A stretch of DNA of 64,000 nt from assembly GCF_002631185.1 (NCBI RefSeq), contig NZ_PDNU01000021.1, forward strand, positions 1-64,000, read 5' to 3'. The DNA is from Teichococcus rhizosphaerae (GTDB lineage: Bacteria; Pseudomonadota; Alphaproteobacteria; Acetobacterales; Acetobacteraceae). Below the pieces are notes generated by a model that was given only the letters and a program-made list of their open reading frames with translations, did no database searches and was not told the origin of the DNA. A program made the translations under genes and the position numbers. This document shows, piece after piece, positions 35,839-61,005 of this stretch. Position 1 is the stretch's first letter. Every line of letters begins with the position of its first letter.

Positions 35839-37401
35839 ATGGCCGACCTGTCCTCCCACGACCGCATCCTCATCCTCGATTTCGGCAGCCAGGTGACGCA
35901 GCTGATTGCGCGGCGCCTGCGGGAATCGGGCGTCTATTGCGAGATCTGGCCGTTCACGGCCGAGCCCGCGCGCATCCAGGGCTTCGCGCCAAAGGGGATC
36001 ATCCTCTCCGGCGGCCCCGCCAGCACCGTGGACGAGGGCAGCCCGCGCGCCGCCCAGGTGGTGTTCGAGATGGACATCCCCGTGCTCGGCATCTGCTACG
36101 GCCAGCAGACCATGTGCATGCAGCTCGGCGGGCTGGTGGAGAAGAGCGACCACCAGGAATACGGCCGCGCCTATGTCGAGGTGCAGGAGGATTGCGCGCT
36201 GACCAAGGGCCTCTGGTCCCCCGGCGCGCGCGAGCAGGTGTGGATGAGCCATGGCGACCGCGTGGCGCGGCTGCCGGAGGGCTTCCGCGTCGTCGCCACC
36301 AGCCCCGGCGCCCCCTTCGCCATGGTGGCCGATGACAGCCGCCACTTCTACGGCATCCAGTTCCACCCCGAGGTGGTGCACACGCCGCATGGCGCGCAGC
36401 TGCTGCGCAACTTCACCCACGAGGTCTGCGGCTGCCAGGGCGACTGGACCATGGCCGCCTTCCGCGCCGAGGCCATCGCCCGCATCCGCGAGCAGGTGGG
36501 CGGCGGCCGCGTGATCTGCGGCCTTTCGGGCGGCGTCGATTCCTCCGTGGCGGCGGTGCTGATCCACGAGGCGATCGGCGACCAGCTCACCTGCATCTAT
36601 GTCGATCACGGCGTGATGCGGGCGGGCGAGACCGAGCAGGTGGTGCAGACCTTCCGCGACCGCTTCAACATCAAGCTGGTCCACCGCGACGCCTCCGACC
36701 TGTTCCTCGGCGCCCTGGAAGGCGTCACCGACCCGGAGGTGAAGCGCAAGACCATCGGCCGGCTGTTCATCGAGGTGTTCGAGGAGGAGCAGGAGAAGAT
36801 CGGCGGTGCCGACTTCCTGGCCCAGGGCACGCTCTACCCGGACGTGATCGAGAGCGTCTCGGCCACCGGCGGGCCGTCGGTCACCATCAAGTCGCACCAC
36901 AATGTCGGCGGCCTGCCCGAGGACATGCGCATGAAGCTCGTCGAGCCGCTGCGCGACCTGTTCAAGGACGAGGTGCGGGCGCTGGGCCGCGAGCTGGGCC
37001 TGCCGGAGGAGATCGTCGGCCGCCACCCCTTCCCCGGCCCGGGGCTGGCCATCCGCATCCCCGGCGAGGTGACGCGCGAGCGCGTGCAGATCCTGCAGAA
37101 GGCGGACACGATCTATCTGGAGGAGATCCGCGCGGCGGGCCTCTACGACGCCATCTGGCAGGCCTTCGCCGTGCTGCTGCCGGTCAAGACCGTGGGCGTG
37201 ATGGGCGACGGCCGCACCTATGACAGCGTCTGCGCGCTGCGCGCCGTGACCTCGACCGACGGCATGACGGCCGATGTGTATCCCTTCACCATGGAATTCC
37301 TGACGCGGGTGGCGGGGCGCATCGTCAACGAGGTGCGCGGCATCAACCGCGTGACCTACGACATCACCTCCAAGCCCCCCGGCACGATCGAGTGGGAATA
37401 A
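35839..37401 (+). CDS. guaA: GMP synthase (glutamine-hydrolysing)
   Basis: A 520-residue enzyme converting XMP to GMP. The class I glutamine amidotransferase domain has [10 protein letters not shown] (nucleophile Cys) and FHPEVVHT (His, Glu). The ATP-pyrophosphatase P-loop is [11 protein letters not shown]. The C-terminal dimerisation domain ends [10 protein letters not shown]. The gene is intact even though the mobile element begins immediately after it. This fits integrases that recombine in the 3' end of guaA and restore its last codons. Confidence 0.97.
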
Positions 37402-37608: not shown

Positions 37609-37695
37609 CAGCCTAACACGCTGACCATAAACAGATATTCCCGTCAAAAGCCTCCAAATACCGCGTGACGGTACTTTTCCGCGAGGAGGCCCAGA

Positions 37696-38952
37696 ATGTT
37701 GACGGATGCGGCACTCAAGTGCCTGAAACCAAAAGCCAAAATGTACAAGGTGACCGATCGTGACGGCATGTATGTGCGTGTCGCGCCGACAGGCGGCATC
37801 TCGTTCAGGCTCGACTACCGGCTGAACGGCAGGCGGGAGACCGTCCATCTTGGCAAGTACGCCCGAGATGGGATCTCGCTCGCCCGAGCTCGCGAATTGT
37901 GCCTGGACGCGAAACGCATGATTGCCGAGGGGCGGTCCCCCGCCATCGAGAAGCAGCGGGAGAAGCGCCGGATCAAGGAGGCCAAGAGCTTCGGCGAGTT
38001 CGGCGAGAAGTGGCTGACGCGCGCGCCCATGGCGGACAGCACGCGCGCTATGCGCCGCGCCATATTCGAGCGTGAACTCATGCCCGTCTGGCGGAACCGT
38101 TTGCTGACCGAGATCACGCCTGATGACCTGCGCGCCCACTGCGCCAAGATCGTGGAACGGGGCGCGCCCGCGACGGCCATCCATGTGCGGGACATCCTGA
38201 AGCAGATCTACGGCTTCGCCATTCTCCACGGCGAGAAGGTCGCAAACCCGGCCGATGACGTCGGCCCGGCGTCGATCGCCACATTCACGCCCAAGGACCG
38301 GGCGCTTTCGCCGACTGAGATCCGCATCATGCTCAAGCAGCTCGAGCATGTCGCGACGCTGCCGACGATTCGCCTCGGCATGAAGCTCTACCTCCTCACC
38401 ATGGTCCGGAAGAGCGAACTGCAGGACGCGGTCTGGGATGAGGTCGATTTCGAAAACGCCGTCTGGACGATCCCGAAGGAGCGCATGAAGCGATCGAAGC
38501 CGCACAATGTCTACCTGTGCCGGCAGACCCTCGACATCATGATCGCGCTCAAGACCTGCGCCGGTAATTCCCGGTATCTGCTGCCGTCCCGCTACGATGC
38601 GGATGCGCCGATGTCGCGGGCGACCTTCAACCGGGTCACCTACGCGGTCGTCGAACAGGCCAAGAAGGAGGGGCTGCCGCTGGAGCCGTTCACCGTGCAT
38701 GACCTGCGTCGCACTGGTTCGACGCTGCTCAATGAGTTGGGCTTCAACCGCGACTGGATCGAAAAGTGCCTGGCGCACGAGGACGGGCGTTCATCACGCG
38801 GCGTCTACAACAAGGCCGAATACGAGGTTCAGCGTCGCCACATGATGCAGGAATGGGCCGACACCGTCGATGCCTGGGTCGAGGGGCGGAAGTATGTTCC
38901 GACGCTGCTGCCGACAGTCATGCCGTCTATCGCGCTCGATCCTGCCCTTTGA
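37696..38952 (+). CDS. int: Tyrosine recombinase/integrase of the element (P4-like, DUF4102 N-terminus)
   Basis: A 418-residue site-specific recombinase that excises and integrates the element. The N-terminal DUF4102-type arm-binding domain includes DGMYVRVAPTG and FRLDYRLNGRRETVHLGKY. The catalytic pentad is visible: Arg238 (MVRKSEL), His335 and Arg338 (HDLRRTG), His361 (LAHE) and Tyr371 (GVYNKAEY). All active residues are intact. An AGGAGG ribosome site precedes the ATG. The last 36 codons lie inside a direct repeat duplicated at 42915. The 3' end overlaps the antisense alpA remnant. Confidence 0.93.
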   Translation: MLTDAALKCLKPKAKMYKVTDRDGMYVRVAPTGGISFRLDYRLNGRRETVHLGKYARDGISLARARELCLDAKRMIAEGRSPAIEKQREKRRIKEAKSFGEFGEKWLTRAPMADSTRAMRRAIFERELMPVWRNRLLTEITPDDLRAHCAKIVERGAPATAIHVRDILKQIYGFAILHGEKVANPADDVGPASIATFTPKDRALSPTEIRIMLKQLEHVATLPTIRLGMKLYLLTMVRKSELQDAVWDEVDFENAVWTIPKERMKRSKPHNVYLCRQTLDIMIALKTCAGNSRYLLPSRYDADAPMSRATFNRVTYAVVEQAKKEGLPLEPFTVHDLRRTGSTLLNELGFNRDWIEKCLAHEDGRSSRGVYNKAEYEVQRRHMMQEWADTVDAWVEGRKYVPTLLPTVMPSIALDPAL

Positions 38953-39105
38953 CCGGGTGGGGCTTGCGCTTGGTGACGTCGGGATGCTGTGCGCGATGGA
39001 TCGGCTTCGCGCGCCGCGCCAGCAACCAGGCGTGGACTTCGGCGAGATCCCAGACGATGCAGCGCGGTGACAGCGCGAAGCGGCGTGGAATTCGCCGCGC
39101 TGCTC
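38842..39105. repeat. Direct repeat copy 1 (int 3' end plus alpA remnant)
   Basis: 264 bp nearly identical to 42915-43179, with five substitutions and one single-base indel. It starts inside int at codon 383 and ends within alpA. The two copies bracket the metal-resistance cargo. Confidence 0.95.
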
Positions 39106-39127
39106 TATTTGATAGATGACTCTGCTA
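38927..39127 (-). pseudogene. alpA-like remnant, truncated and frameshifted
   Basis: This is the antisense counterpart of the intact alpA gene at 43000-43275. A single missing A in the GGAATTC stretch near 39090 shifts the frame after EQRGEF, and similarity to the intact copy fades at about 39115, so the N-terminal third, including the start codon and ribosome site, is absent. It cannot make a functional regulator. It would have been the original neighbour convergent with int before the cargo arrived. Confidence 0.8.
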
Positions 39128-39281
39128 TGAAGGGCGGTGCCGATTGTCCAAGCGGCGCCCGCACTTGGGCTGTAACTTGTCGGCGACGCGATGAGCGCGA
39201 CTTTCACTATCGACGAAATCAAAATCGGGGAGGCGGTCAAGGCGCCGCTCCTGTACCGGAAGGAAGCGAAATGATGATCGA

Positions 39282-39991
39282 ATGCCTCGGAATGAAAGGG
39301 CTCTGACGGTGGCCGCGCTCAAGTTCTCCTTGATCCCCATGTTTGCGATCATGATTGGTGCGCTTCTCGCGGCGTGGCGCACGCCCGGCGAGAAACAGGT
39401 CGCGGTCGTGCAGCATCTGGCGGCGGGCGTGGTGTTCGCTGCCGCTGCGACGGAGATCCTGCCCCAAGTGATGCACGGCGGTTCTCCGATGGCGACGGTG
39501 ATCGGCGGGGCGCTGGGCGTTGCAGTGATGCTCGGCCTGAAGGCGGCGGAAAGCCGATGGCAGGGTCCGGTGGCGCTGCTTGCTGCGATCGGTCTCGATC
39601 TGGCGATTGACGGCCTGGTCCTCGGCCTTGCCTTCATCGCCGGCGAGAGGGCGGGAATATTGTTGGCCGTCGCGCTGACCTTGGAAGTGTTGTTCCTGGC
39701 CCTGACCCTTACCATCGATCTGGCGGGCCGGTATCCCAAGGCGAAGGCGATCGGCCTGACTTGCGCGTTGGCGCTGCTGGTGCCGATGGGTGCGCTGATC
39801 GCGCAGCCGGTGGCATTACTGCCGCCATATGGATCACCGGGTTCTTGAGCTTCGGCCTGATGGCGTTGCTCTACCTTGTCACCGAAGAACTGCTGGTCGA
39901 GGCGCACGAGAAGCCGGACTCGCCGCTTATCTCCGCGATGTTCTTCGTCGGCTTCCTGGCGATTCTCCTGCTTGAGGAAATCATGGCATGA
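39282..39991 (+). pseudogene. ZIP-family metal transporter, interrupted by a frameshift
   Basis: Two consecutive reading frames together give a ZIP-like transporter of about 230 residues. The first (39282-39848) encodes five or six hydrophobic segments with LAAGVVFAAAATEILPQVMHGG and AAIGLDLAIDGLVLGLAFIAGER, which holds the metal-binding DxxxDG-like helix. The second frame continues with ITGFLSFGLMALLYLVTEELLVEAHE and a final helix ending 39991. The switch falls near 39820-39835 and needs only one inserted or deleted base. It may be a real inactivation or a sequencing error. Its place before a P1B ATPase suggests Zn/Cd/Co handling. A GTG at 39309, after GAAAGGG, is an alternative start. Confidence 0.7.
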
Positions 39992-40209
39992 CGGCTCAGC
40001 CGGAGGCAAAGGTTGCCGCCGAGCGGCGTACGCTCCGGATCGCGGGCAGCAACAGCGTCTTGGTCGATGCGCGGGCTGAAACCAAGATCGGAGCATGTTT
40101 CGACCTGGTGGAACCACCAGACTCGAAAACTATGCGGAAAGACAAGTACATAGAGCGTCCGTTCTGGTGCAATCAGAACGCGACGCCCTCTAGGGCGGAG
40201 ACAGCGTGA
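39988..40209 (+). CDS. Small ORF before the metal ATPase, possibly a remnant (73 aa)
   Basis: It starts inside the ZIP stop (ATGA) and ends overlapping the ATPase start. The beginning, PEAKVAAERRTLRIAGSN, is reminiscent of the start of heavy-metal-binding domains, but the CxxC motif is absent and the rest has no recognisable features. Two inverted repeats lie within it, so the segment may be a regulatory region carrying a decayed coding sequence. Confidence 0.3.
   Translation: MTAQPEAKVAAERRTLRIAGSNSVLVDARAETKIGACFDLVEPPDSKTMRKDKYIERPFWCNQNATPSRAETA
40105..40180. promoter_or_regulatory. Two inverted repeats upstream of the metal ATPase
   Basis: CTGGTGGAACCACCAG (40105-40120) is a perfect palindrome with a 2-nt centre. 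CGTTCTG and CAGAACG (40160-40166, 40174-40180) form a second dyad, ending 25 bp before the ATPase start at 40206. They look like operators for a metal-sensing repressor, although no such regulator is encoded in the cargo. Confidence 0.4.
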
Positions 40210-42746
40210 TGACCGACAAGTTCGAACTGGATATTCCCGTCTTGCTGCCCGAGGTTCCCGACGCGGCCGACGCCTGTGTCGGCCGCCTCGTTTCGACATT
40301 GAGCGCCAAGCCCGGCGTTGAGCGCGCGCACGTTCTGGCCGCCGATGGCGATACGCCGGCAAAGCTGTGCATCCATTTCGACGGCGAAGCGCTGCCGCTG
40401 TCACGCGTGCGCGACATGGTGCGGGCGGCAGGCGCCGAGATTAGCGGGCGATACGGTCATGCGACATGGCAGGTCGAAGGAATCGGCCACGAACGCCGCG
40501 CCCGCACCGTCGGCGAGACCCTGTGCCAGATGCCCGGCGTGCTGCAGGCCGATGCCAGCGCCTCGGGCAGCGTTCGCGTCGAATATGACAAGGAACTAGT
40601 CGACGAGGCAGCGATCGTCGCGGCGCTGGGCAAGCTCAAGGTCAAACCGGGCAAGCGGACGGGCTCCAATCAGGCCGGTGGTCATGCTGGACACGATCAC
40701 GGCGCCGGCGACCATGCCGGCCACGATCACGGGCCTGGCGGCCATGCCGAAGGCGCGGAAAAGCACGGACTGGGCGATGGCCACGATCACGCCCATGCCA
40801 ATTTCCTTGGCCCCAATACGGAGCTGATCTTCGCGCTCGCCTGCGGCGCGCTGCTGGCGATCGGCTTCGCGATCGAAAAGCTGGTTGCGGGTGCCCCCGA
40901 CTGGCTGCCGACCGCCTTCTATGTGGGTGCCTATGTGTTCGGTGGCTTCTTCACGCTGCGCGAGGCGATCGACAATCTGAAGCTCAAGAAATTCGAGATC
41001 GACACGCTGATGCTCGTCGCGGCCGCCGGTGCCGCGGCGCTCGGCGCCTTTGCGGAAGGCGCGCTACTGCTGTTTCTGTTCAGCCTCGGCCATGCGCTCG
41101 AGCATTATGCGATGGGTCGCGCCAAGCGCGCGATCGAGGCGCTGGCCGAGCTCGCGCCCGACAAGGCGACGGTGCGCCGTGGAGGGCAGACCTCGGAAAT
41201 CCCCGTCGAAGAGCTGGTGGTCGGCGACGTCGTGATCGTGCGACCGAACGAGCGCCTGCCCGCTGACGGCTTCCTCATCAAGGGGTCGAGCGCGATCAAC
41301 CAGGCCCCAGTCACCGGCGAGAGCATCCCGGTCGACAAGGAACCCGTCGCAGATGTCGAGACGGCGCGCGCGAAGCCCGATGCCGTTGACGCCGCGTCAC
41401 GGATTTTTGCTGGGACGATCAACGGCGGCGGCGCGATTGAAATCGAAGTGACACGGCGCTCCAACGAAAGCGCGCTCGCCAAGGTCGTGAAGATGGTGAG
41501 CGAAGCGGAGACGCAGAAATCCCCGACCCAGCGGTTCACCGATCGGTTCGAGCGCATCTTCGTGCCGGTGGTGCTGGCGCTGTCGTTTATCCTGCTGTTT
41601 GCCTGGGTCGTCGTCGACGAGCCGTTCCGCGACAGCTTCTACCGGGCGATGGCGGTGCTGGTTGCCGCCAGCCCTTGTGCACTGGCCATCGCCACCCCCA
41701 GCGCGGTTCTATCAGGGGTCGCGCGGGCCGCACGCGGCGGGGTACTGGTCAAAGGCGGCGCGCCGCTCGAGAATCTTGGCTCTCTGAAGGCGATCGCGTT
41801 CGACAAGACCGGTACGCTGACGGAAGGGCGTCCACGCATCACTGATGTCGTCCCGGTCGACGGCGCGAGCGAGGCGGATTTGTTGACGCTCGCCGTCGCC
41901 GTCGAAGCCCTGAGCGATCACCCGCTGGCGCAGGCCATCGTCAAGGACGGTCGCGAACGCCTGGGTGGACGAGAACTGCCTGTCGCAATCGACGTCAAGA
42001 GCCTTACCGGACGCGGCGTCACCGCGACTGTCGACGGCGAAACGGTGTGGATCGGCAAGGCAGAGATGTTCGGCGTGGAGGGCATCCCGTCGCTGAACGC
42101 CGCCGCAACCGATGCCATCGCCCAGCTTCGCGAAGGCGGCCGCACGACAATGGTTGTCCGCAAGGGCGACCGCGACATCGGCGCGATCGGCCTGATGGAC
42201 ACGCCCCGCGAGGCAGCCAAGGTCGCCCTCAGGCGCCTGCGCGACATGGGCATAACTCGCATGATCATGATCTCCGGCGATAACCAGAAGGTCGCCGACG
42301 CCATCGCCCGCGAGGTCGGTCTCGACGAGGCATGGGGCGATCTGATGCCGGAAGACAAGGTCGCCGCGATCAAGAAACTCGCCGGCGAGGACAAGGTCGC
42401 GATGGTCGGCGACGGCGTCAACGACGCCCCTGCGATGGCGTCGGCAACGGTCGGTATTGCAATGGGTGCCGCTGGCTCGGATGTGGCCCTGGAGACAGCA
42501 GACGTCGCGTTGATGGCCGACGATCTCGCGCATCTGCCGTTCGCTGTGGGCTTGAGCCGCCACACCCGCGGCATCATCCGGCAGAATGTGTTCGTCAGCC
42601 TTGGCGTCGTGGCGTTCCTCGTGCCGGCCACCATTCTCGGACTCGGCATCGGCCCGGCGGTGGCGATGCACGAAGGTTCGACGCTGCTCGTTGTCTTCAA
42701 CGCGCTTCGCCTGCTCGCTTTCAAGGATCGGACCGGCGCGGCGTGA
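40206..42746 (+). CDS. P1B-4-type heavy-metal-transporting ATPase
   Basis: An 846-residue metal exporter. The N-terminal ~150 residues resemble two degenerate metal-binding folds without CxxC, followed by a His/Asp/Gly-rich segment (residues ~160-197, repeated HDHG) that could bind Zn, Co or Ni. Transmembrane motif SPC (489-491, AASPCALA) replaces CPC, and HEGST (near 822) is the partner motif of P1B-4 pumps, which move Co, Zn, Cd or Fe. DKTGTLTEG (Asp533) is the phosphorylation site and GDGVND the hinge. Its stop overlaps the next start (GTGA). ATGATG at 40206 leaves a one-codon choice of start. Confidence 0.9.
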   Translation: MMTDKFELDIPVLLPEVPDAADACVGRLVSTLSAKPGVERAHVLAADGDTPAKLCIHFDGEALPLSRVRDMVRAAGAEISGRYGHATWQVEGIGHERRARTVGETLCQMPGVLQADASASGSVRVEYDKELVDEAAIVAALGKLKVKPGKRTGSNQAGGHAGHDHGAGDHAGHDHGPGGHAEGAEKHGLGDGHDHAHANFLGPNTELIFALACGALLAIGFAIEKLVAGAPDWLPTAFYVGAYVFGGFFTLREAIDNLKLKKFEIDTLMLVAAAGAAALGAFAEGALLLFLFSLGHALEHYAMGRAKRAIEALAELAPDKATVRRGGQTSEIPVEELVVGDVVIVRPNERLPADGFLIKGSSAINQAPVTGESIPVDKEPVADVETARAKPDAVDAASRIFAGTINGGGAIEIEVTRRSNESALAKVVKMVSEAETQKSPTQRFTDRFERIFVPVVLALSFILLFAWVVVDEPFRDSFYRAMAVLVAASPCALAIATPSAVLSGVARAARGGVLVKGGAPLENLGSLKAIAFDKTGTLTEGRPRITDVVPVDGASEADLLTLAVAVEALSDHPLAQAIVKDGRERLGGRELPVAIDVKSLTGRGVTATVDGETVWIGKAEMFGVEGIPSLNAAATDAIAQLREGGRTTMVVRKGDRDIGAIGLMDTPREAAKVALRRLRDMGITRMIMISGDNQKVADAIAREVGLDEAWGDLMPEDKVAAIKKLAGEDKVAMVGDGVNDAPAMASATVGIAMGAAGSDVALETADVALMADDLAHLPFAVGLSRHTRGIIRQNVFVSLGVVAFLVPATILGLGIGPAVAMHEGSTLLVVFNALRLLAFKDRTGAA

Positions 42747-42895
42747 AATGGCTGACCGTATTTGACCTCGACGGGACGCTGGGTGAGAGCGAGCAGCCCG
42801 TGTCGGCCGAGATGGCGGCGACGCTCGCATCCCTGCTGGCCGAGATCGATGTCGCGGTGATCTCGGGTGGCAACTGGCCGCAGTTCGCCCGCTAA
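42743..42895 (+). pseudogene. Truncated HAD-superfamily (phosphomannomutase-like) gene
   Basis: A GTG overlapping the ATPase stop begins VKWLTVFDLDGTLGESEQPVS, HAD motif I, and continues to VISGGNWPQF, a feature of eukaryote-type phosphomannomutase/HAD-IIB enzymes. After 50 residues the frame ends at 42895, only 20 bp before direct repeat copy 2. The family is around 240 residues, so about four-fifths are missing. It was probably cut off by the event that made the repeat. Confidence 0.7.
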
Positions 42896-42914
42896 GTCGT
42901 TTCGGAGTCGTCAT

Positions 42915-43179
42915 ATGATGCAGGAATGGGCCGACACCGTCGATGCCTGGGTCGAGGGGCGGAAGTATGTTCCAACGCTGCTGCCGACAGTCATGCCGTC
43001 TATCGCGCTCGATCCTGCCCTTTGACCGGGCGGGACTTGCGCTTGGTGACGTCGGGATGCTGCGCGCGATGGATCGGCTTCGCGCGCCGCGCCAGCAACC
43101 AGGCGTGGACCTCGGCGAGATCCCAGACGATGCAGCGCGGTGACAGCGCGAAGCGGCGTGGAAATTCGCCGCGCTGCTC
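42915..43179. repeat. Direct repeat copy 2 (int 3' fragment plus alpA)
   Basis: 265 bp matching 38842-39105. The plus strand carries the last 36 codons and stop of int (42915-43024), without any catalytic residue. The minus strand is the 3' part of the intact alpA gene. Confidence 0.95.
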
Positions 43180-43275
43180 CATCTCGTAGATTGTGCTGTC
43201 GGCCAGGGGCACCATCTCGCGCAGTTGGTGCCGCCGGATGGTCTTCCTGATCTCCAAAGGCTCGCTCTGACCCAT
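43000..43275 (-). CDS. alpA: AlpA-family DNA-binding regulator/excisionase
   Basis: A 91-residue MerR-like winged-helix protein. The core IRRHQLREMVPLADSTIYEMEQRGEFPRRFALSPRCIVWDLAEVHAWLLARR is the AlpA/phage CP4-57 regulator pattern (helix-turn-helix, then W-x-x-x-E-V). Such proteins act as excisionases or activate the integrase. The start at 43275 has AAGGAG 7 nt upstream. Its last residues overlap, antisense, the int fragment of repeat copy 2. It is the functional partner of the decayed copy at 38927. Confidence 0.85.
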   Translation of the reverse strand: MGQSEPLEIRKTIRRHQLREMVPLADSTIYEMEQRGEFPRRFALSPRCIVWDLAEVHAWLLARRAKPIHRAQHPDVTKRKSRPVKGQDRAR

Positions 43276-44686: not shown

Positions 44687-44858
44687 AGCGCTCGAGCATG
44701 GGCACAATCAGCTTCGTCGGGTCGCCGATGGTCTGGCCTTGTTCGCGGCCGAGTGCTGCGGCGTAGGCGACGAGGTCCCGATGCAGCGGCGCAGGGAGTT
44801 CAATCGTCACCTTGACCGGCTTGTCGTCGATGATCGGGCCGAGCTTCAGCTTGGTCAT
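44604..44858 (-). CDS. DUF2274 protein (last gene of the trb operon)
   Basis: An 84-residue protein, TKLKLGPIIDDKPVKVTIELPAPLHRDLVAYAAALGRE, matching DUF2274, which regularly follows trbI in alphaproteobacterial elements. The fold looks like a ribbon-helix-helix DNA-binding unit. The start overlaps the trbI stop (TGATG). Its 3' end overlaps the 3' end of the convergent LysR gene. Confidence 0.8.
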   Translation of the reverse strand: MTKLKLGPIIDDKPVKVTIELPAPLHRDLVAYAAALGREQGQTIGDPTKLIVPMLERFIATDRGFARARRDGSQRAARADAQGA

Positions 44859-46057
44859 CACAACCCTCCATAAGGTTCGAGCACGAGGTCGCGGGTGACG
44901 ATGACGCGCACGGGGAACCCCGGTCTGATCGTCAGGGTCGGCGCGACATTGAGTTGCCGACGGATGATCTGCTGCCCTGCGTCGTTGATGGTGTCCTGCC
45001 CGCCGTTGCGGATCGCCCGGAGCAGCCGATCCTGATCGTCAACGGCGAGTTCGGCGCCGACCGACAGCAGTGTCGACAGGCCGGCAGCCTTGGCGAGATC
45101 CCACCAGTGATAGTCGACGCCATCCTGGAGACCCGCATAGCCTTGCGCGTCGGCTCCGGGTTGACGTTCCAAGACGATCGAACGGCCATTCGGGAGGATG
45201 AGCCGCTTCCAGACGAGCAGCACCCGGCGCTGACCGAAGCCGACATCGTTGCTGTACTCGCCGATCAGCCGCGTGCCCTGCGGGACGAGCAGGATGCGCC
45301 CGGTCGGGCTGTCGTAGACATGCTCCGTGACCTGCGCGGTGATCTGGCCGGGCAAGTCGGATCGGATGCCGGTGATGAGGGCCGCGGCGATGACGGCGCC
45401 GGTCTGAAGCACATAGGGCGATGCCGGACCCATCACGCGATCTGGCGAGACCGTGCGGCGGTCCACGCCCGCATTCAGGAACGCGAGCTGGCGATCCTGC
45501 GCCGTCGCTGCACCTGGCTGGCCCGGAAGACCTAGCCCAGAGAGGCTCGGGCTGCCTGGTCCACCAACTGTCGCAATCGGAGCTGCGACGCGCGCCTCCG
45601 TCTGGAAGAAGACGCGGCTCGTTCGGGCAGCTTCTTCTTCCGCGCGCCTGCGTTGCTCGACCGGATCGACGGTGGGCGCTGCTGCCATCGGCGGCGTGAC
45701 GGGCTGGCCACGGTTCTGCGCATCGAGGATGGGGCGCCCCAGATCCCCGGGCAGCGGAGGCCCAAGCACCGGACCGGTGTAGTCGCGTGGCAGGCCGGCG
45801 AGCCCGTCCGCAGTTCGCCGATTTTGCGTGGAGTAAAGCTCCTCACTGCCAGGGCCGATACTGCGCGTCTGAAGCGCATAGATGAGCGCGCCACCAACCC
45901 CGAGGGCGGCGACGAGACTGATGCCGCCCAGCACCTTTCGCGACAGTCGGGTGACCCGGGGCGGTTCGGCGCGCAGCCGCATTGGCGCAGCGGCGTCGCC
46001 GGGTTGTGTGCCGACCAGCTGTGCGTCGGCTTCGTTGGGCGTGTCGCGCTCGCTCAT
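44858..46057 (-). CDS. trbI: Conjugal transfer protein TrbI (VirB10-like)
   Basis: A 399-residue core-complex protein spanning the inner and outer membranes. One N-terminal membrane segment (LGGISLVAALGVGGALIYAL) is followed by a Pro-rich periplasmic region. The conserved VirB10 C-terminal domain is visible: AALITGIRSDLPGQITAQVTEHVYDSPTG, LVPQGTRLIGEYS, and GVDYHWWDLAKAAGLSTLL. The ATG at 46057 overlaps the trbG stop (ATGA), which fixes the start against a longer open frame. Confidence 0.95.
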   Translation of the reverse strand: MSERDTPNEADAQLVGTQPGDAAAPMRLRAEPPRVTRLSRKVLGGISLVAALGVGGALIYALQTRSIGPGSEELYSTQNRRTADGLAGLPRDYTGPVLGPPLPGDLGRPILDAQNRGQPVTPPMAAAPTVDPVEQRRRAEEEAARTSRVFFQTEARVAAPIATVGGPGSPSLSGLGLPGQPGAATAQDRQLAFLNAGVDRRTVSPDRVMGPASPYVLQTGAVIAAALITGIRSDLPGQITAQVTEHVYDSPTGRILLVPQGTRLIGEYSNDVGFGQRRVLLVWKRLILPNGRSIVLERQPGADAQGYAGLQDGVDYHWWDLAKAAGLSTLLSVGAELAVDDQDRLLRAIRNGGQDTINDAGQQIIRRQLNVAPTLTIRPGFPVRVIVTRDLVLEPYGGL

Positions 46058-47034
46058 GACGCGGGCCTCCCATCGGTGCGAACGATCCGGACCGTCTGCT
46101 GGCGCTCGCCACTGCCGAGACGGAGCTCGGCGGCGCCGAACAAACGGTCGACGATCAGGATGTTCTGGTGGATCCGGCTGTTGGCGATTTGCGGTTCGCC
46201 ATCTGCGCCGATGACGAAGAGCGGGGGCATCTCGCCCTGAACGATCCCGCGCGGGAACTCGACATAGACGCGGCGCCCGTCGTCGTAGACCGAGATTGGC
46301 CGCCACGGCGGCGTGTTGCCTGTAAGACCGTAGCGATAGTTCCGTGCCGCAACGGCCGGGATCACTGGTGTAGCGGGCACTGCCTGTCTCTGCGAGGCGG
46401 GCGGCTGCGGATAGGCCCAGGCGACGGCCGGCATATAGGGGCGTTCGCCCGAGCGCAGCTCGATCATGTAGATGCGACGGTCGGTGGTGATGACCAGATT
46501 GGTCGTGATGTCTGGCCGTGTCGGCTTCACGAGGACATGGACGCGCCGGGTGATGCCCGAGCCGCTCTCTGTGTCGCCGATGATCCAGCGCGCCGTATCG
46601 CCCGCAGCGATCGGGCCGGCGCCGGTCAGGCTTTCGCCTGGTTCCAACGCGATGTTGGTGATCTGCCCGGGAGCGGCATAGACTTGATAGAGCGCGCCCT
46701 CGCTCCAGGGATAGATCTGTATCGAGTTGTAATACCCCTCGCGGCGCGGTTCGACGCGCGCGGCGGCATTGGCATTCTCCACGCGGCCCGCCGGCGTCCC
46801 CGCGGCAGCGCCACCGCGCGCGGGTGTCCAGGCGGGCGGTGTGTGAAGCGGCCTAGGTGGCGCCTCCGTGACGGCAGCCGGCACAGGGGGAAGTGGCGGC
46901 ACATCGGCGTCATAGCTGATCTGTGGCGGTCGGTTGGTCGCGCAGCCGGCCAGCGCCAATCCCGAGATCAGCAAAAGCGCAGAGCCGGATAGGCGGAAGC
47001 CACGGCTCGCGGGTCGGCGGAGATGATTTCTCAT
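46054..47034 (-). CDS. trbG: Conjugal transfer protein TrbG (VirB9-like)
   Basis: A 326-residue outer-membrane core-complex protein. It has a lipoprotein-type signal (LLISGLALAGC), then a Pro-rich linker. The VirB9/CagX domain includes PWSEGALYQVYAAPGQITNIALEPGE and, near the end, RRVYVEFPRGIVQGEMPPLFVIG. Both ends overlap neighbours by four bases. It works with TrbI and TrbF in the mating channel. Confidence 0.95.
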   Translation of the reverse strand: MRNHLRRPASRGFRLSGSALLLISGLALAGCATNRPPQISYDADVPPLPPVPAAVTEAPPRPLHTPPAWTPARGGAAAGTPAGRVENANAAARVEPRREGYYNSIQIYPWSEGALYQVYAAPGQITNIALEPGESLTGAGPIAAGDTARWIIGDTESGSGITRRVHVLVKPTRPDITTNLVITTDRRIYMIELRSGERPYMPAVAWAYPQPPASQRQAVPATPVIPAVAARNYRYGLTGNTPPWRPISVYDDGRRVYVEFPRGIVQGEMPPLFVIGADGEPQIANSRIHQNILIVDRLFGAAELRLGSGERQQTVRIVRTDGRPAS

Positions 47035-47720
47035 TGCCCCATTTCCCGCGACCAGTTGATGGCGTTGACGTAGATCCCAAGCGGATTGGCCCGCAGCCGC
47101 TCTGCGTCGCGCGGGGGTTGGATCACGATGGTCAAGATGGCTGTCCAGCGCTGTGTCGTGGAGAGCTGGCCGTTCTCGTACTGGCGTTCGGTCCAGGCCA
47201 CGCGGAAGCTGTCAGGCGACGCGCGGATCACGCTCGACACTTCGACCGACACCTGCTGCTTCCCGACGCGGGTGAACGGATCGTTGGCGCGGGCGAAGTC
47301 ATTGAGGGCCGCCGCGCCGCGATCGGTCGTGAACTCGTAGGCGCGCAGCCAATTCTGCCGCACGACGATGGCGTCGGCCGGGATCGAGCGGACCTGCTCG
47401 ATGAACCGCGCCAGATGCCAGGCCACCTGCGGGTCGGTGGGGCGGTAGTCGGCCTGCGCTGGCGCGACCGCCTGCGCCTGGCCGAGATTGTCGACCTGCA
47501 CCACCCACGGGACGATGGTCCCGCGCGCCGACTGCCAGACCAGCGCGGCAGCGAAGCCGGCGGAGAGGATCAGGCAGCCGAAGGCCATGAGCCGCCAGTT
47601 TCGGGCCTGGACACGCGCTGAGCCGATTCGATCATCCCAGATCTGCGCCGCGCGCTGATATGGCGTCTCGGGCTCGGGCGTCTTTCCATAGTGGGTTGCG
47701 GGTCGCTTGAAGAAGCTCAT
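47031..47720 (-). CDS. trbF: Conjugal transfer protein TrbF (VirB8-like)
   Basis: A 229-residue inner-membrane protein with one helix (LMAFGCLILSAGFAAALVW) and a periplasmic VirB8-like domain. Typical pieces are IWDDRIGSARVQARNWR before the helix and VAWHLARFIEQVRSIP and NPLGIYVNAINWSRE after it. The start at 47720 overlaps the trbL stop (ATGA), which decides against the longer open frame. Confidence 0.95.
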   Translation of the reverse strand: MSFFKRPATHYGKTPEPETPYQRAAQIWDDRIGSARVQARNWRLMAFGCLILSAGFAAALVWQSARGTIVPWVVQVDNLGQAQAVAPAQADYRPTDPQVAWHLARFIEQVRSIPADAIVVRQNWLRAYEFTTDRGAAALNDFARANDPFTRVGKQQVSVEVSSVIRASPDSFRVAWTERQYENGQLSTTQRWTAILTIVIQPPRDAERLRANPLGIYVNAINWSREMGQ

Positions 47721-49066
47721 GTGCGGTCGCCTCCGGAGAGATTGATGGAAGAGCCGCCGCCGTGGCTGTCGCCCGATCGGATCGCGTGTGCCGCGAGCGT
47801 GACGCCGTGGCTCATGGTCTGCCCACGTCGCATGCGCTGCGCCCAAGCCGGCGGGCTGGCGGCAGAGCCTGTGGCCGCCGGTGCGGCCGAACCGGCATCA
47901 TTCGCGACCGTTCCCATGCTCGAGGAACCGCCGGTGGCTCCGAAGCCGCTTTTGACGCCGTCGGCGAAGCTCGAGCGAACGCTTTGCGCGGCCCGGCGCA
48001 GCGGAGAGGCTGCCGCGCCGCCGGCCGCTCGTGCGACGCCGCCGAGGCCCGACGCGACGCCGGCGGCGCCCGACTGGCCGAGGGAACCGAGACTGTAGGC
48101 AGCAGAGGCGGCTCCCGCCGCGGTGGCTCCACCGCGCACGGCGGCGGCGCCGCCGGAAATGGCGCTCGCGCCACCGCGCAAGGCGAGCCCGGCCGCGCCG
48201 CCGGCAGCCATGGCTGCGCCGCCCGCGACGAGGCCGGTGCCGATGGCGGAGCCTGCGCCGAGTTGCGGGCCGCCGGAAACGATGCCGTTGGCGATACCCG
48301 GACCAAAGATGCCGAGACCGAGAAGCGACAGCGCCGCCAACACGACGGCCATCGCGTCGTCGATGGTCGGTGGCTGACCGCCGAATCCTGCCGTGAACTG
48401 ACTGAACAGAGTCGAGCCGATGCCGATGATGACGGCGAGCACCAGTACCTTGATCCCTGACGAGATGACGTTTCCCAGCACGCGCTCGGCCATGAAGGCG
48501 GTCTTCCCGAACAGGCCGAACGGGATCAGGACAAAGCCGGCCAGGGTGGTCAGCTTGAATTCGATCAGCGTGATGAAGAGCTGGATGGCCAGGATGAAGA
48601 AGGCGAGCAGCACCAGCGCCCAGGCGAAGAGCAGGCAGGCGATCTGGATGAAGTTTTCGAAGAAGGCGATCCAGCCCATCAGGTTTGAGATGGATTCGAG
48701 CAGCGGCCTCGCCGCATCGAGACCCGTCTGCGCGACCCGGCCCGGGCGCATCAGGTCCTGGATGGAAAACCCGGTGCCGGACGCCTGAAGTCCGAGGCCG
48801 GCGAAGCTTTCGAAGACGATCCGCGCGAGGTTGTTCCAGTTGCCGATGATGTAGGCAAAGACGCCCACAAACAGCGTCTTCTTCACAAGGCGTGCGATGA
48901 TGTCGTCGTCCGCGCCCCAGCTCCAGAACAGGGCGGCCAGCGTGACGTCGATGACGATCAGCGTCGTCGCGATGAACGCCACCTCGCCGCCGAGCAGGCC
49001 GAATCCGCTGTCGATGTAGGAGGTGAAGACCCCGAGGAAATTGTCGATGACGCCGCTGCCGCCCAT
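47717..49066 (-). CDS. trbL: Conjugal transfer protein TrbL (VirB6-like)
   Basis: A 449-residue polytopic membrane protein. Residues 1-270 hold six or more helices, with GGSGVIDNFLGVFTSYIDSGFGLL at the start and DDAMAVVLAALSLLGLGIFGPG near the end of the block. The C-terminal third is Gly/Ala-rich and low in complexity (repeated GGAAxAxGG), then hydrophilic; this tail varies widely between elements. TrbL forms part of the inner-membrane pore. Confidence 0.93.
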   Translation of the reverse strand: MGGSGVIDNFLGVFTSYIDSGFGLLGGEVAFIATTLIVIDVTLAALFWSWGADDDIIARLVKKTLFVGVFAYIIGNWNNLARIVFESFAGLGLQASGTGFSIQDLMRPGRVAQTGLDAARPLLESISNLMGWIAFFENFIQIACLLFAWALVLLAFFILAIQLFITLIEFKLTTLAGFVLIPFGLFGKTAFMAERVLGNVISSGIKVLVLAVIIGIGSTLFSQFTAGFGGQPPTIDDAMAVVLAALSLLGLGIFGPGIANGIVSGGPQLGAGSAIGTGLVAGGAAMAAGGAAGLALRGGASAISGGAAAVRGGATAAGAASAAYSLGSLGQSGAAGVASGLGGVARAAGGAAASPLRRAAQSVRSSFADGVKSGFGATGGSSSMGTVANDAGSAAPAATGSAASPPAWAQRMRRGQTMSHGVTLAAHAIRSGDSHGGGSSINLSGGDRT

Positions 49067-49069
49067 GGC

Positions 49070-49351
49070 TCACCGCCCTTCGTCGGCGCGTCGCGGCGCG
49101 GTGCGGGTGCCAAGGAAACGGTCGCGGGTTTCGGCCCAGATGCGCAGACACTCGCCGTCCCTTGCGGCGGCTTCCCCCATCTGCTGGCACCGACGCTGGC
49201 CCTCGCGCAGCGGGTCCGGCGCCTCCTCAAGCACGGGCGTCGGCCGAGCCGCTGGCCTTTCCTCTTTCCGGGTCATCTCGATCGCCGTTGCCGTGATTGC
49301 GACGGAGACGAAGATGATTGCGCCCACGCGGGCCAGCGTCTTGCCGTCCAT
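49070..49351 (-). CDS. trbK: TrbK-like (TrbK-alt) putative entry-exclusion protein
   Basis: A 93-residue protein with one N-terminal membrane segment (LARVGAIIFVSVAITATAIEM) and a C-terminal motif with RRCQQMGEAAARDGECLRIWAETRDRFLG, including two Cys. This pattern is the TrbK-alt type found between trbJ and trbL. It is thought to block entry of related elements. It starts 10 bp after trbJ and ends 3 bp before trbL. Confidence 0.85.
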   Translation of the reverse strand: MDGKTLARVGAIIFVSVAITATAIEMTRKEERPAARPTPVLEEAPDPLREGQRRCQQMGEAAARDGECLRIWAETRDRFLGTRTAPRRADEGR

Positions 49352-49361
49352 CCTGCTGTCC

Positions 49362-50123
49362 TCAGTTGCCGTTCGGGAACATCCGGGCGTTGCCGGGCTG
49401 ATAGCCGGAGCCGGGCGTCAGGAACCGGCGGCGCTGTTCACGGCCTTGTTCGGCGGCTGCGGCGCGCTCGGCATCGACAAGCGCCTGCGCTCGGCCGTTC
49501 GCAGCGACCACAGCGACCAGGTCTGCGAGTTGCTGCGCCTGCAATGCGAGCAACTGGTTGCCGGCCTGGGTTGCCTGAAGCGCGCCGGTCGCACCCTGGC
49601 TCTGCCCGACCAGAGCCGCCATCTCGGCGCGGTTGGTGTCGATGTTGCCGACGACACCGGCCTGCACGCGCAGCGCGTCCTGAAGGCCGCCGACCGTGTT
49701 CTGCCAGCGCGATCGTGCATCGGAGACGAGACGCTGATCCGAAGTGGACAGCGAGATGTTGCTGTACTGGCTCTGAAAGGCTTGGTCGATCTGCTGCACG
49801 TCGAAGGCGATGCGCTGTGCCTGACCCAGAAGCGCTTGCGTGCGCTGCACCGATTGCTGGAGCTGCTGAAGCGAGGAGTAGGGCAGGCTCGCGAGATTGC
49901 GGGCCTGGTTGATCAGCATCTGCGCTTCGTTCTGGAGGCTCTGGATCTGGTTGTTGATCTGCTCGAGCGCCCGCGCGGCCGATAGGACATTCTGGACGTA
50001 GTTGGTCGGATCATAAACGACCCACTGCGCCGCTGCCGGGGTGACGAACACGGGCGATAAGGCGACGGGCAGCGACAGGATGGTTGCGGCGAACAGCGCC
50101 GCGCGAGAGCGTCGGATCATCAT
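49362..50123 (-). CDS. trbJ: Conjugal transfer protein TrbJ (VirB5-like)
   Basis: A 253-residue periplasmic protein with a signal peptide (cleavage near TPAAAQW) and the typical start of the mature part, VVYDPTNYVQNVLSAARALEQINNQI. The remainder is Gln-rich coiled coil (residues ~45-120 and ~180-230). TrbJ is needed for pilus tip or mating-pair formation. The ATG at 50123 overlaps the trbE stop (ATGA). Confidence 0.93.
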   Translation of the reverse strand: MMIRRSRAALFAATILSLPVALSPVFVTPAAAQWVVYDPTNYVQNVLSAARALEQINNQIQSLQNEAQMLINQARNLASLPYSSLQQLQQSVQRTQALLGQAQRIAFDVQQIDQAFQSQYSNISLSTSDQRLVSDARSRWQNTVGGLQDALRVQAGVVGNIDTNRAEMAALVGQSQGATGALQATQAGNQLLALQAQQLADLVAVVAANGRAQALVDAERAAAAEQGREQRRRFLTPGSGYQPGNARMFPNGN

Positions 50124-52558
50124 GGCTTGGGCTCCAGGTTGGCGAGATCGGGAATGAGGTCGGCGGCCCATCCGACATCGCGGGCGCGCAGCCAGGCGGA
50201 CAGGAAGCCGTCGCGGCCATGCTCGGCGAGGATCGCCTCGATGGCGGCCTGATCAGTTTTCGAGGATGCCGCGCAGAGCGCGAGGGCGACTTCGGAGAGC
50301 CCCAGCTCGAACAGCCGGTTGCCGCGCCGCGACTGGCAGTAATAGTCGCGCTTGGGTGTGGCCCGGCTGAGGATCTCGATCTGGCGGTCGTTCAAGCCGA
50401 AGCGCCGGTAGATGGCGGTGATCTGCGGTTCGATCGCGCGTTCGTTCGGCAGCAAAAGGCGCGTCTGGCAGCTTTCGATGATGGCCGGAGCGATCGCGCT
50501 CCCATCGATGTCAGCCAGCGATTGCGTGGCGAAGACGACGGACGCGTTCTTCTTGCGCAGCGTCTTCAGCCATTCGCGCAGTTGCGCCGAGAAGCCTTCA
50601 TCGTCGAGCGCGAGCCAGCCTTCGTCGACGATCAGGAGCGTGGGCCGTCCATCCAGACGGTCGCCGATCCGATGGAAGAGATAGGCGAGGACCGCCGGCG
50701 CCGCGCCGCCGCCGATCAGCCCCTCGGTTTCAAAGGCCTGGACCGCAGCTTCCCCTAGCTGCTCGCCTTCGGCGTCCAGCAGCCGTCCGTATGCACCGCC
50801 CACGCAAAAGGGTCGCAGCGCCTGTTTGAGATCATTCGACTGGAGGAGGACGGCGAGGCCCGTCAGCGTGCGCTCAGGGACCGGCGCGGACGCCAGCGAG
50901 GTCAGCGCCGTCCAGAGATGTTCTTTCACCTCCGGCGTGATCGTGACGCCCTCGCGGGCAAGGATGGCGGCAATCCAGTCGGCTGCCCAGCCACGCTCAT
51001 GGGTTTCGTGAACGCGTGCGAGTGGCTGGAGGGAGACCGACGACGCGGCGCCTTCCGTCAGGCTGCCGCCGAGGTCGTGCCAATCGCCTCCCATGGCGAG
51101 CGCGGCTGCGCGGATCGAGCCGCCAAAGTCGAAGGCGAAGACTTGGGCACCCGGATAGCGCCGGAACTGAAGCGCGATAAGCGCGAGCAGGACGGACTTG
51201 CCCGCGCCGGTCGGTCCGACGACCAGTGTGTGGCCGACGTCGCCGACATGCAGCGAAAAGCGAAACGGCGTGCTGCCCTCCGTCTTGCCATAAAGCAGGG
51301 GCGGCGCACCAAAATGCTCGTCCCCTTCCGGCCCGGCCCAGACTGCGGAGAGCGGAATCATGTGGGCGAGGTTCAGGGTGGAGATCGGTGGCTGGCGGAC
51401 GTTGGCGTAGACATGGCCGGGCAGCGAACCGAGCCAGGCATCGACGGCATTGATGGTCTCGGACATCGCGGTGAAGTCGCGGCCCTGGATCACCTTTTCC
51501 ACGAGGCGCAACTTCTCGTCGGCGGTGCGCGGATCGGCATCCCAAACGGTGACCGTGGCGGTCACATAGGCCTGACCGGCATAGTCGGCCCCAAGCTCCT
51601 GCAGGGCCATATCGGCATCGGCGGCCTTGTTCGCAGCGTCAGTATCGACGAGCGCGGATGCCTCGTTGGTCATCACCTCCTTCAGGATCGCGGCGATCGA
51701 CTTGCGCTTGGCGAACCACTGCCGCCGGATGCGCGTCAGCAACTTCGTGGCGTCCGTCTTGTCGAGGAGGATCGCCCGCGTGGACCAGCGGTAGGGAAAG
51801 GCGAGCCGGTTGAGATCGTCGAGAATCCCTGGCGTCGTCGCGGTTGGAAAGCCGTTGATCGTCAGCACGCGCAGATGAGCGGCGCCGAGCCGCGGCTCGA
51901 GGCCGCCGGTCAGCGGCTCATCGGCGAGCAGCGCATCGAGGTAGATCGGTGTTTCGGGCACGCGGACGCGGTGGCGCTTCGTCGAGACAGTCGAGTGCAG
52001 GTAGGTCAGGGTCTCGCCGTCATCGAGCCACCGGCATTCCGGCATGAACCCGTCGACGAGCTGGAGGACGCGGTTTGTGCGGTCAATGAAGGCCGCGAGG
52101 GCTTCATGGGGATCAACGCCGGACTGTTGGCGACCCTCGTAGAGCCAGGTTTCCGCCCGCGCGGCGTCCTCGGCAGGCGGGAGATAGAGAAAGGTCAAGA
52201 AGTAGCTCGACTCGTAATGCGCGTCCGCTTCCTCGAAGTCGGCCTTGCGCTCCGCATCAACGAGGGCGGAGGCGGCGTCCGCGAAGCGGCTTGCCGGATA
52301 GGAGGCGGCTTCGTGGCGCTGCGCTTCGACGAAGATCGCCCAGCCCGAGCCCAGACGCCGGAAGGCGTTGTTGAGGCGACTGGCGACGGCCACCAGTTCA
52401 GCGGCCACAGCTGAGTCGAGATCGGGACCACGAAAGCGCGCGGTGCGCTGGAAGCTGCCATCCTTGTTGAGCACGACCCCTTCGCCGACCAGCGCCGCCC
52501 AGGGCAGGAAATCTGCAAGGCGGGTCGCGGTTCGGCGATATTCGGCGAGGTTCATCAT
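50120..52558 (-). CDS. trbE: Conjugal transfer ATPase TrbE (VirB4-like)
   Basis: An 812-residue cytoplasmic ATPase powering pilus biogenesis and substrate transfer. The N-terminal CagE/VirB4 domain ends near residue 410. The ATPase domain carries Walker A GPTGAGKS (448-455) and Walker B LLIVDE (641-646), and SVVFATQSLADIDGS is the following conserved Gln/Ser region. ATGATG at 52558 leaves a one-codon uncertainty. It lies 9 bp after trbD. Confidence 0.96.
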   Translation of the reverse strand: MMNLAEYRRTATRLADFLPWAALVGEGVVLNKDGSFQRTARFRGPDLDSAVAAELVAVASRLNNAFRRLGSGWAIFVEAQRHEAASYPASRFADAASALVDAERKADFEEADAHYESSYFLTFLYLPPAEDAARAETWLYEGRQQSGVDPHEALAAFIDRTNRVLQLVDGFMPECRWLDDGETLTYLHSTVSTKRHRVRVPETPIYLDALLADEPLTGGLEPRLGAAHLRVLTINGFPTATTPGILDDLNRLAFPYRWSTRAILLDKTDATKLLTRIRRQWFAKRKSIAAILKEVMTNEASALVDTDAANKAADADMALQELGADYAGQAYVTATVTVWDADPRTADEKLRLVEKVIQGRDFTAMSETINAVDAWLGSLPGHVYANVRQPPISTLNLAHMIPLSAVWAGPEGDEHFGAPPLLYGKTEGSTPFRFSLHVGDVGHTLVVGPTGAGKSVLLALIALQFRRYPGAQVFAFDFGGSIRAAALAMGGDWHDLGGSLTEGAASSVSLQPLARVHETHERGWAADWIAAILAREGVTITPEVKEHLWTALTSLASAPVPERTLTGLAVLLQSNDLKQALRPFCVGGAYGRLLDAEGEQLGEAAVQAFETEGLIGGGAAPAVLAYLFHRIGDRLDGRPTLLIVDEGWLALDDEGFSAQLREWLKTLRKKNASVVFATQSLADIDGSAIAPAIIESCQTRLLLPNERAIEPQITAIYRRFGLNDRQIEILSRATPKRDYYCQSRRGNRLFELGLSEVALALCAASSKTDQAAIEAILAEHGRDGFLSAWLRARDVGWAADLIPDLANLEPKP

Positions 52559-52567
52559 GGCCGCGCC

Positions 52568-52849
52568 TCAGACCGAGAGATGGCCCGGAATGCGCAGATG
52601 CCGGCGGCCCACTTCGACAAAAAGCGGATCGCGCTTTGCTGCCCAAACGGCGGCGAAATGGCCGATCGCCCAGATGAGGAGACCGACCAGCCATAGCCGC
52701 AATCCGAGACCGACAGCGCCGGCGAGTGTGCCGTTCATGATGGCGATGCTGCGCGGTGCGCCGCCCAGCAGAATATGCTCGGTCAGCGCGCGGTGGACCG
52801 GAACCGAGAAGCCCGCGACCTCATCGGGATGATGCAGGAGGCCCGTCAT
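52568..52849 (-). CDS. trbD: Conjugal transfer protein TrbD (VirB3-like)
   Basis: A 93-residue inner-membrane protein. The segment GFSVPVHRALTEHILLGGAPRSIAIMNGTLA is the TrbD/VirB3 signature, followed by a hydrophobic stretch (LGLRLWLVGLLIWAIGHFAAVW). It works closely with TrbE, and in some systems the two are fused. Its start overlaps the trbC stop (TGATG). Confidence 0.93.
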   Translation of the reverse strand: MTGLLHHPDEVAGFSVPVHRALTEHILLGGAPRSIAIMNGTLAGAVGLGLRLWLVGLLIWAIGHFAAVWAAKRDPLFVEVGRRHLRIPGHLSV

Positions 52850-53181
52850 CAGACGAGCGCCCCGCCGCCGAACGAGAAGAACGACAGGAAGAAGCTGGAC
52901 GCCGCGAAGGCGATCGACAGGCCGAAGACGATCTGGATGAGGCGCCGAAATCCTCCGCTCGTGTCGCCGAACGCCAGCGTCAGGCCGGTGACGATGATGA
53001 TGATCACCGCGATGATCTTGGCGACCGGCCCCTCGATCGACTGGAGGATGGACTGCAGCGGCGCTTCCCAGGGCATCGAGGAGCCGGATGCGTGGGCGGC
53101 GGGCGCCAGAAGAAAGCTCAGGGTCAGCGCCGTGGCGGCGGTTGCGAGGCGCTGATGGCCGCGCGCAATGTGTCGGATCAT
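52849..53181 (-). CDS. trbC: Conjugal transfer pilin TrbC (VirB2-like)
   Basis: A 110-residue prepilin. The signal peptide ends near AAHASGSSMPWEAPL; two hydrophobic helices follow (VAKIIAVIIIIVTGLTLAFG and IQIVFGLSIAFAASSFFLSF). TrbC-type pilins are trimmed and cyclised by a TraF-type peptidase, and such an S26 peptidase is encoded at 62380. The start overlaps the trbB stop (ATGA). Confidence 0.93.
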   Translation of the reverse strand: MIRHIARGHQRLATAATALTLSFLLAPAAHASGSSMPWEAPLQSILQSIEGPVAKIIAVIIIIVTGLTLAFGDTSGGFRRLIQIVFGLSIAFAASSFFLSFFSFGGGALV

Positions 53182-54167: not shown

Positions 54168-54350
54168 GTCGTCCCCGTTCGCTTGCGGGCCCGCGCGACG
54201 CGCGGCCCTGGATCGGGGATGAGTAAGAAAGGCAGGAATTGGGGCGTTGCAACAACGCTCAGGGGGTCGTCGTACTGTGGCGAAGAAAGACAGGTAATCG
54301 GCGGACCGGCGTCGAGCCACGGCAGCGTCTGAGGCTGCCGATCGGCTCGT

Positions 54351-54465
54351 TTTCCCGAGCGGGAATAATTCAGGCCCGGGAGCTACCCCGAGGCGCAGGA
54401 TTTCCCGAGCGGGAAATTCTTATAGACATTCTTCAGAAATCCATGATACTTTCCCGTTCGGTAAA
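54351..54465. promoter_or_regulatory. Three evenly spaced operator-like palindromes before hipB
   Basis: TTTCCCGAGCGGGAAT at 54351, TTTCCCGAGCGGGAAA at 54401 and TTTCCCGTTCGGTAAA at 54450 share the dyad TTTCCCG-N2-CGGGAAA. They are 50 and 49 bp apart, close to five helical turns. The third ends 4 bp before the hipB ATG. Autoregulation by HipB, and possibly control of trbB to the left, is likely. Confidence 0.75.
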
Positions 54466-54469
54466 TATC

Positions 54470-55992: not shown

Positions 55993-56032
55993 CGCGTACC
56001 TTTCAGCAGCGTTAATATAATCGCGAGGTAGT

Positions 56033-56728: not shown

Positions 56729-56770
56729 GTCCTATGGAATGGGGCGAATGTGCAGCTCCGAAAGTTGGCC

Positions 56771-57193: not shown

Positions 57194-57200
57194 GGTTGCC

Positions 57201-59189: not shown

Positions 59190-59216
59190 CGGTGGCGGTG
59201 CTTTCTTCCTTGCTGG

Positions 59217-60980: not shown

Positions 60981-61005
60981 CGCCGGCCTCCGGCGGGCCA
61001 AACGC

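Follow-up and report, generated by a model that had tools for sequence, protein, structure and literature searches.

As described in the available parts of the cited papers, several elements resemble the one analysed here. ICERspD18B, an integrative conjugative element (ICE) of Rheinheimera, lies at the 3' end of guaA, contains the octamer GAGTGGGA, the reported core of guaA islands, in its end repeat, and has a P4-type integrase gene with alpA next to it as well as arsenic resistance within its cargo (PMC7775301). GIsul2 also occupies a guaA 3' site with GAGTGGGA and has a related integrase and an AlpA-family gene beside int; according to its authors, expressed AlpA supplied circular intermediates, and a deletion including alpA left integration unchanged in the assay used (PMC9376610). 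Trb-type conjugation genes are found in the guaA ICEs of Mesorhizobium and in tripartite ICEs with IntG, for which guaA is a reported ICE site, the excision factor in these being rdfS (PMC8627217). In the available part of PMC10732049, guaA occurs only as an MLST gene. Our literature searches returned no paper uniting ICE, direct repeats, gene conversion, integrase gene and cargo, and nothing relevant on Roseomonas together with ICE as judged by titles and abstract openings.

The locus described here lies in a 64,000-bp stretch of the draft genome of Teichococcus rhizosphaerae (positions 1 to 64,000 of contig NZ_PDNU01000021.1), called the window below. It has the features of a guaA-integrated P4-type ICE, namely the guaA site, a tyrosine integrase gene, alpA, and type IV secretion and coupling protein genes, but alpA is set apart from int by cargo, and a segment made of parts of both genes stands on either side of that cargo. 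ICERspD18B, by comparison, is 28.5 kb long, and the available text of PMC7775301 makes no mention of any duplication of an int/alpA segment. An element in plasmid R485, which we read as GIsul2, has the int-alpA-repA-repC order of GIsul2 and an int 58% identical; in it, alpA follows int on the same strand after a gap of 147 bp, whereas int and alpA of the window's type converge and overlap.

An ICE at guaA with cargo between int and alpA

The features of the locus, in window coordinates unless stated otherwise, are as follows.

37390..37397, + strand: att core GAGTGGGA, which marks the element's left boundary at the guaA 3' end; the same octamer recurs at contig position 103413
37696..38952, + strand: int, tyrosine integrase gene, intact, 418 aa (PF00589, PF13356, PF22022)
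38828..39117, + strand: repeat copy 1, the last 41 int codons and a broken antisense alpA fragment
39118..42900, + strand: cargo, a piece of a metal cluster known from sphingomonad plasmids, left end uncertain by ~15 bp
39282..39991, + strand: ZIP-like transporter gene, frameshifted in the window (PF02535 just under the Pfam cutoff)
40043..40194, no strand: site of a CDF transporter gene, gene absent; ~150 bp where plasmids carry the CDF gene
40206..42746, + strand: heavy-metal P-type ATPase gene, intact, 846 aa (TIGR01525, TIGR01512)
42743..42899, + strand: remnant of a HAD-IIB gene, truncated by copy 2; homology to an intact plasmid gene stops at 42899
42901..43191, + strand: repeat copy 2, an int stub and the 3' part of intact alpA
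43000..43275, - strand: alpA, complete at 91 aa, encoding the probable excision factor (PF05930, E 4.5e-12; translation)
44858..61112, - strand: conjugation genes for TrbI, CagX/TrbG, TrbL, a TraG-type P-loop protein, a T2SSE ATPase, a coupling protein and a DUF3363 protein, with other ORFs interspersed (Pfam on seven ORFs)

Judged by this gene content, the host element is a predicted ICE at the 3' end of guaA. Because GAGTGGGA occurs at both 37390 and 103413, and because the match of the window's contig to that of a second genome (G372) stops at 103439, near the right octamer, the element is taken to be ~66 kb long and to reach past the window; 1.46 occurrences of the octamer are expected by chance in the window. 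Between 37398 and 58527 there is no GAGTGGGA on either strand, and an internal att core could have been deleted. Our relaxase check gave the DUF3363 match at 59220-61112 alone. Relatives of int that adjoin guaA reach 99% identity, and its match to NCBIfam NF007246 is below the cutoff of that model, the label ‘P4’ being the wording of papers. We grade AlpA of this element as only a probable excision factor because the deletion including alpA in GIsul2 left integration unchanged (PMC9376610, in the part available).

int and alpA overlap tail to tail in most relatives

By scanning genome contigs for int relatives, we obtained at least 513, of which the best 80 were kept. Among these 80, guaA lies beside int in 77 and alpA in 79, the one without alpA (L079) ending at int. 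The two genes overlap tail to tail by 17-83 bp, counted from stop codon to stop codon, in 75 of the best 80; the other five are L079, L123, in which int is frameshifted and not scorable, and three interrupted loci (L065, L119 and L125). The uninterrupted int-alpA junction that the earlier note expected in relatives is the usual state, and the lack of such junctions, which it had named as evidence against its reading, was not what we found.

In a search of 397 genomes of the family, 77 had some match, many of them weak, with, on our reading of the results, 24 genomes giving one continuous match to the int end plus alpA and three giving two (the window's own genome, G372 and G003). Thirteen loci were fetched, 11 of which have a single copy, with guaA, int and alpA adjoining one another. 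In G237, sequences matching window positions 35850-39105 and 42901-48000 are joined across one copy, and both this locus and that of G072, also single-copy, are collinear with the window up to 48000. Loss of the cargo as a circle, which the earlier note considered possible through recombination between the repeats, was not observed, and the cargo-free relatives look ancestral rather than derived. Two copies were found in one of 17 genomes of the window's genus (its own) and in two of 15 genomes of the genus of G372 (G372 and G003). The int protein was present in nine of 385 genomes of the class sample, where sampling is thin, and viral contigs gave one int relative.

The two copies of the repeat

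Local alignment places the direct repeats at 38828-39117 and 42901-43191, with a BLAST core of 279 bp (38828-39105 and 42901-43179, 96.4% identity, E 2.6e-129), and a search of all 113 contigs of the draft genome at E <= 0.001 detected no third copy. The arrangement is unlikely to be an assembly artefact, given that the same structure is present in G372, on a 5.47-Mb contig, and in G003. The direct repeat of ~265 bp reported in the earlier note is thus real, slightly longer than was stated and shared with two other genomes; the part of int that it includes amounts to 41 codons, not 36. The assignment of a working int and broken alpA to copy 1, and of a working alpA and int stub to copy 2, agrees with the intact 418-aa and 91-aa reading frames. 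In copy 1 the alpA fragment is truncated and has a 1-bp gap relative to copy 2. At 39105, within this broken alpA, G372 (locus L033) has two bases more than the window.

The count of five substitutions and one indel between the copies fits the middle of the repeat (six differences in 259 columns, one of them an indel) but omits the outer 17 and 15 bp, which hold eight further substitutions. Edge and middle divergence in the window thus stand at 8/32 against 6/259 columns (Fisher p 2e-5, for edges picked once the alignment was known). In G003 the copies differ at 46 of 292 columns, or at 36 of 260 in the middle alone. When the edges are compared between the window and G003, those of copy 1 differ at 0/17 and 0/15 positions and those of copy 2 at 1/17 and 1/15, so that in both elements the copies differ from each other at the edges while each edge matches across elements. 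Because of this agreement, the edge differences predate the split of the window and G003. The middle of the window's repeat, in turn, was homogenised, either by conversion of one copy by the other or through incoming DNA. Copy 1 diverges from the close lineage at its right edge too.

The cargo is a metal-cluster fragment

The cargo shares 86-87% DNA identity with clusters on the sphingomonad plasmids pTSSC1 and pBAR4, in which transporter, ATPase and HAD genes follow the same order. Unlike the cargo, the plasmid clusters retain the CDF gene and have complete end genes: the insert begins inside an MliC-like gene and ends inside the HAD gene, both of which continue in the plasmids. The ~150 bp that replaces the CDF gene at 40043-40194 is common to the window and G003. 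The truncation of the HAD gene before copy 2, read earlier from the sequence, is borne out by the plasmid gene, to which homology ends at 42899, and the ZIP frameshift is likewise present in the window, the gene being intact in G003 (236 aa). Using positions 41600-42900 at E <= 1e-150, we found matches in five of 397 family genomes, namely the three carriers and two genomes at 73%, and the cargo looks foreign to the Acetobacteraceae, the family of the host. As the earlier note had remarked, no transposase is apparent: Pfam searches of nine of the other ORFs of at least 60 aa between or overlapping the repeats gave Zip only, and int, alpA and the ATPase gene gave no transposase either.

Three carriers and a mosaic right side

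The end points of the junctions are identical in the window's genome, G372 and G003, that is, in three genomes of two genera. G372, which belongs to a genus other than the window's, differs from the window at three positions in 10,598 bp and is 99.975% identical across a further 27.7 kb, whereas the flanking guaA is 69-95% identical per 100 bp (mean 82%). This near-identity of the element beside a guaA flank at ~82% therefore points to recent transfer with the cargo aboard, and most likely the element moved between genera with its cargo already in place. The cargo-bearing ICE apparently still moves, as its near-identical copies in two genera indicate.

Compared with G003, the window is 98-100% identical over 38403-41802, 79-92% over the rest of the ATPase gene to 42702 and 82-84% in the HAD stub, then 77-96% over 42901-43800 and 92-99% beyond; at the right junction itself there are six mismatches in 55 bp, two of them in the inner 48. 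From ~41803 the window's ATPase gene is an allele other than that of G003. Over this right part the window's allele differs from that of G003 by 15% and takes another position on the tree, while G003 is 8-10% from both plasmids throughout, and this part of the window's ATPase gene was probably exchanged with another cluster. The same region bears on an oxidoreductase gene that is extra in the cargo of G003 and annotated in pBAR4. In pTSSC1 the annotated gene is absent and only its ends are left, which means that deletions of it do happen; for the window, the distant ATPase 3' part weakens, and does no more than weaken, a simple deletion as a candidate. In the NX02 cluster the ATPase gene lies directly beside the HAD gene, an arrangement free of the oxidoreductase, and a swap with such a cluster would be the likelier source of the window's state than a deletion.

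Recombination with clusters holding an intact HAD gene on one side, and with intact int-alpA loci on the other, may have overwritten the flanks up to the right junction. Because both flanks of this junction were later replaced, the divergence between the copies is unusable as a clock, and we rejected it as one given the mosaic; the same caution applies to other such repeats, in which recombination rewrites both sides of a junction. Outside the three carriers, the right junction was found in none of the 385 genomes of the class sample (eight with any match at E <= 1e-8), in none of the 395 of the order sample (19 with any match at E <= 1e-20) and in no plasmid among the matches listed (40 of 56 records), none of which covered 80% of the query. 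The family, order and class samples overlap, each being a partial draw from a larger group. A founding intermediate was likewise found neither in the class and order samples nor among the plasmid matches listed.

Interrupted junctions in other loci

Since the 3' ends of int and alpA overlap, both genes can stay whole around an insert only if the overlap is present on either side of it. In the window, int is whole to the left of the cargo and alpA is whole to its right, and the repeat is the duplicated overlap with its neighbourhood (~290 bp), flanking the cargo. It follows from the overlap that cargo between an intact int and an intact alpA is predicted to come with a duplicated overlap. At L065 (Sandarakinorhabdus cyanobacteriorum), a hipB-like HTH gene and hipA (HipA_C) separate int from alpA (10258-12120), and the overlap is repeated as 46 bp at 83% identity. 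At the Mesorhizobium loci L119 (10258-11040) and L125 (10258-11190), an HTH, antitoxin-like gene lies between int and alpA, called from a protein domain test in L119 and from sequence likeness to L119 in L125. Self-comparison of these two loci resolved no overlap repeat, though the alpA end necessarily contains the overlap sequence; they support recurrent cargo entry more than clear duplication.

One wider reading, which we regard as doubtful, is that the int/alpA tail overlap acts as a recurrent, transposase-free cassette port. Entry would duplicate the overlap and uncouple the antisense-overlapping genes, and the duplicated arms would then let guaA ICEs exchange or lose cargo with int and alpA staying whole.

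Origin of the arrangement

The explanation that we prefer, and consider likely though well short of certain, is that a guaA ICE received a single cargo insertion between int and alpA, that the repeat is the surviving scar of that event, and that the element stayed mobile while its flanks were later rewritten. The metal-cluster fragment would have entered a single time, in a common ancestor of all three carriers, most likely through illegitimate joining of cargo with guaA ICE DNA. Without a duplication of the overlap, an insertion would have cut int or alpA and been lost, leaving the repeat as a scar that bears no transposition signature. Mobility would have been kept with copy 1 supplying Int and copy 2 supplying AlpA, both presumed active, while homologous exchange with other guaA ICEs and with other metal clusters would have rewritten the sequence on both sides as far as the right junction. 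The junction itself would have persisted for want of a homologue to recombine with. An ICE could, on this account, gain cargo within a highly constrained locus with no transposase involved. The earlier suggestion that cargo was captured at the int-alpA locus, with function divided between the copies, gains support from the two genes being whole on separate sides. Against this explanation stand the failure to find a founding intermediate in the class and order samples or among the plasmid matches listed, the duplicated part in the other interrupted loci, which is short (L065) or not resolved (L119 and L125), and the unchanged integration of GIsul2 after the deletion including alpA.

The duplicated segment would derive from two related copies, which is slightly favoured, or from one copy by staggered or template-switched duplication. 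If two related guaA elements were joined at birth, the left one would have contributed int, part of alpA and the cargo, and the right one an int stub, alpA and the backbone, for example by tandem guaA integration and later deletion of the middle. We hold this to be quite possible, if somewhat short of probable. The 46 differences between the G003 copies speak for it, as do the copies of L065, which differ too (38 of 46 positions identical), and the copy-2 int stub of G003, where 29 of 125 sites differ from the close-lineage consensus and 12 of those 29 carry states common (at least 20%) in other lineages, against a chance expectation of 15% for random alternatives (binomial 0.0004) or 20% for random transitions (0.007). 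These counts favour copy 2 of G003 holding other-lineage DNA together with some decay, and they give no date. The remaining 17 of the 29 stub differences, however, have states that are not common in other lineages, a pattern that fits a decaying stub, and the divergence may be secondary, since the right flank was later replaced in either G003 or the window. No internal att core is left, and the right edge of copy 1 lies off the close lineage as if both copies had started in one other lineage. The proposal in the earlier note that two related elements recombined thus has the G003 copies and the other-lineage states of the stub on its side, but with the right-junction flanks replaced, an origin from one element is only somewhat less likely.

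Such an origin, which we entertain only tentatively, would have the cargo entering at a break or stalled fork in a single event, with a staggered or template-switched duplication of ~290 bp and copies identical at birth. Duplications of tens to hundreds of base pairs that cost no target sequence (46 bp in L065, ~290 bp here) would fit events of this kind, and the window copies are indeed 96.4% identical, but the divergence of the G003 copies would then require later overwriting. Entry of a circle that carried the cargo together with a segment of int and alpA, through one homologous crossover that could be reversed for exit, is unlikely: direct repeats would follow directly, and a 3,975-bp circular guaA-int-alpA record is known in Sphingomonas parapaucimobilis, but no plasmid with the cargo junction was seen among the matches listed (40 of 56). 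A composite transposon or IS-borne insertion, to which the direct repeats flanking the cargo might point, is highly improbable and was rejected, since no transposase family turned up in the tested ORFs lying between the repeats or overlapping them, the sequence shows no IS ends at the junctions, the repeats consist of int and alpA parts, and both cargo ends fall inside genes.

Further observations on the element and its relatives

No Rfam family matched the window at the gathering threshold, and its one tRNA gene is far from the locus. In the right part of the element, outside the window, there are genes for a Strawberry-notch-like helicase, a type III restriction-like protein and a HerA-like (DUF87) protein (L150 and L151). 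Also outside the window, ~1.27 kb at 74476-75740 of its contig (C28) with an rve-type transposase ORF is missing from G372, G003 and G237, and is probably a recent IS insertion. The guaA integrase was also seen at locus L084 of a Myxococcota bin (92% identity) and at locus L102 of a Xanthomonas record (89%); its range may extend beyond Alphaproteobacteria, and the Myxococcota bin could be contaminated. The circular record of S. parapaucimobilis (L196, NZ_CP155767.1) carries annotations for guaA, int and alpA alone, the last converging with int and overlapping it by 23 bp; it is either a guaA-int-alpA circle in minimal form or a product of the assembly.
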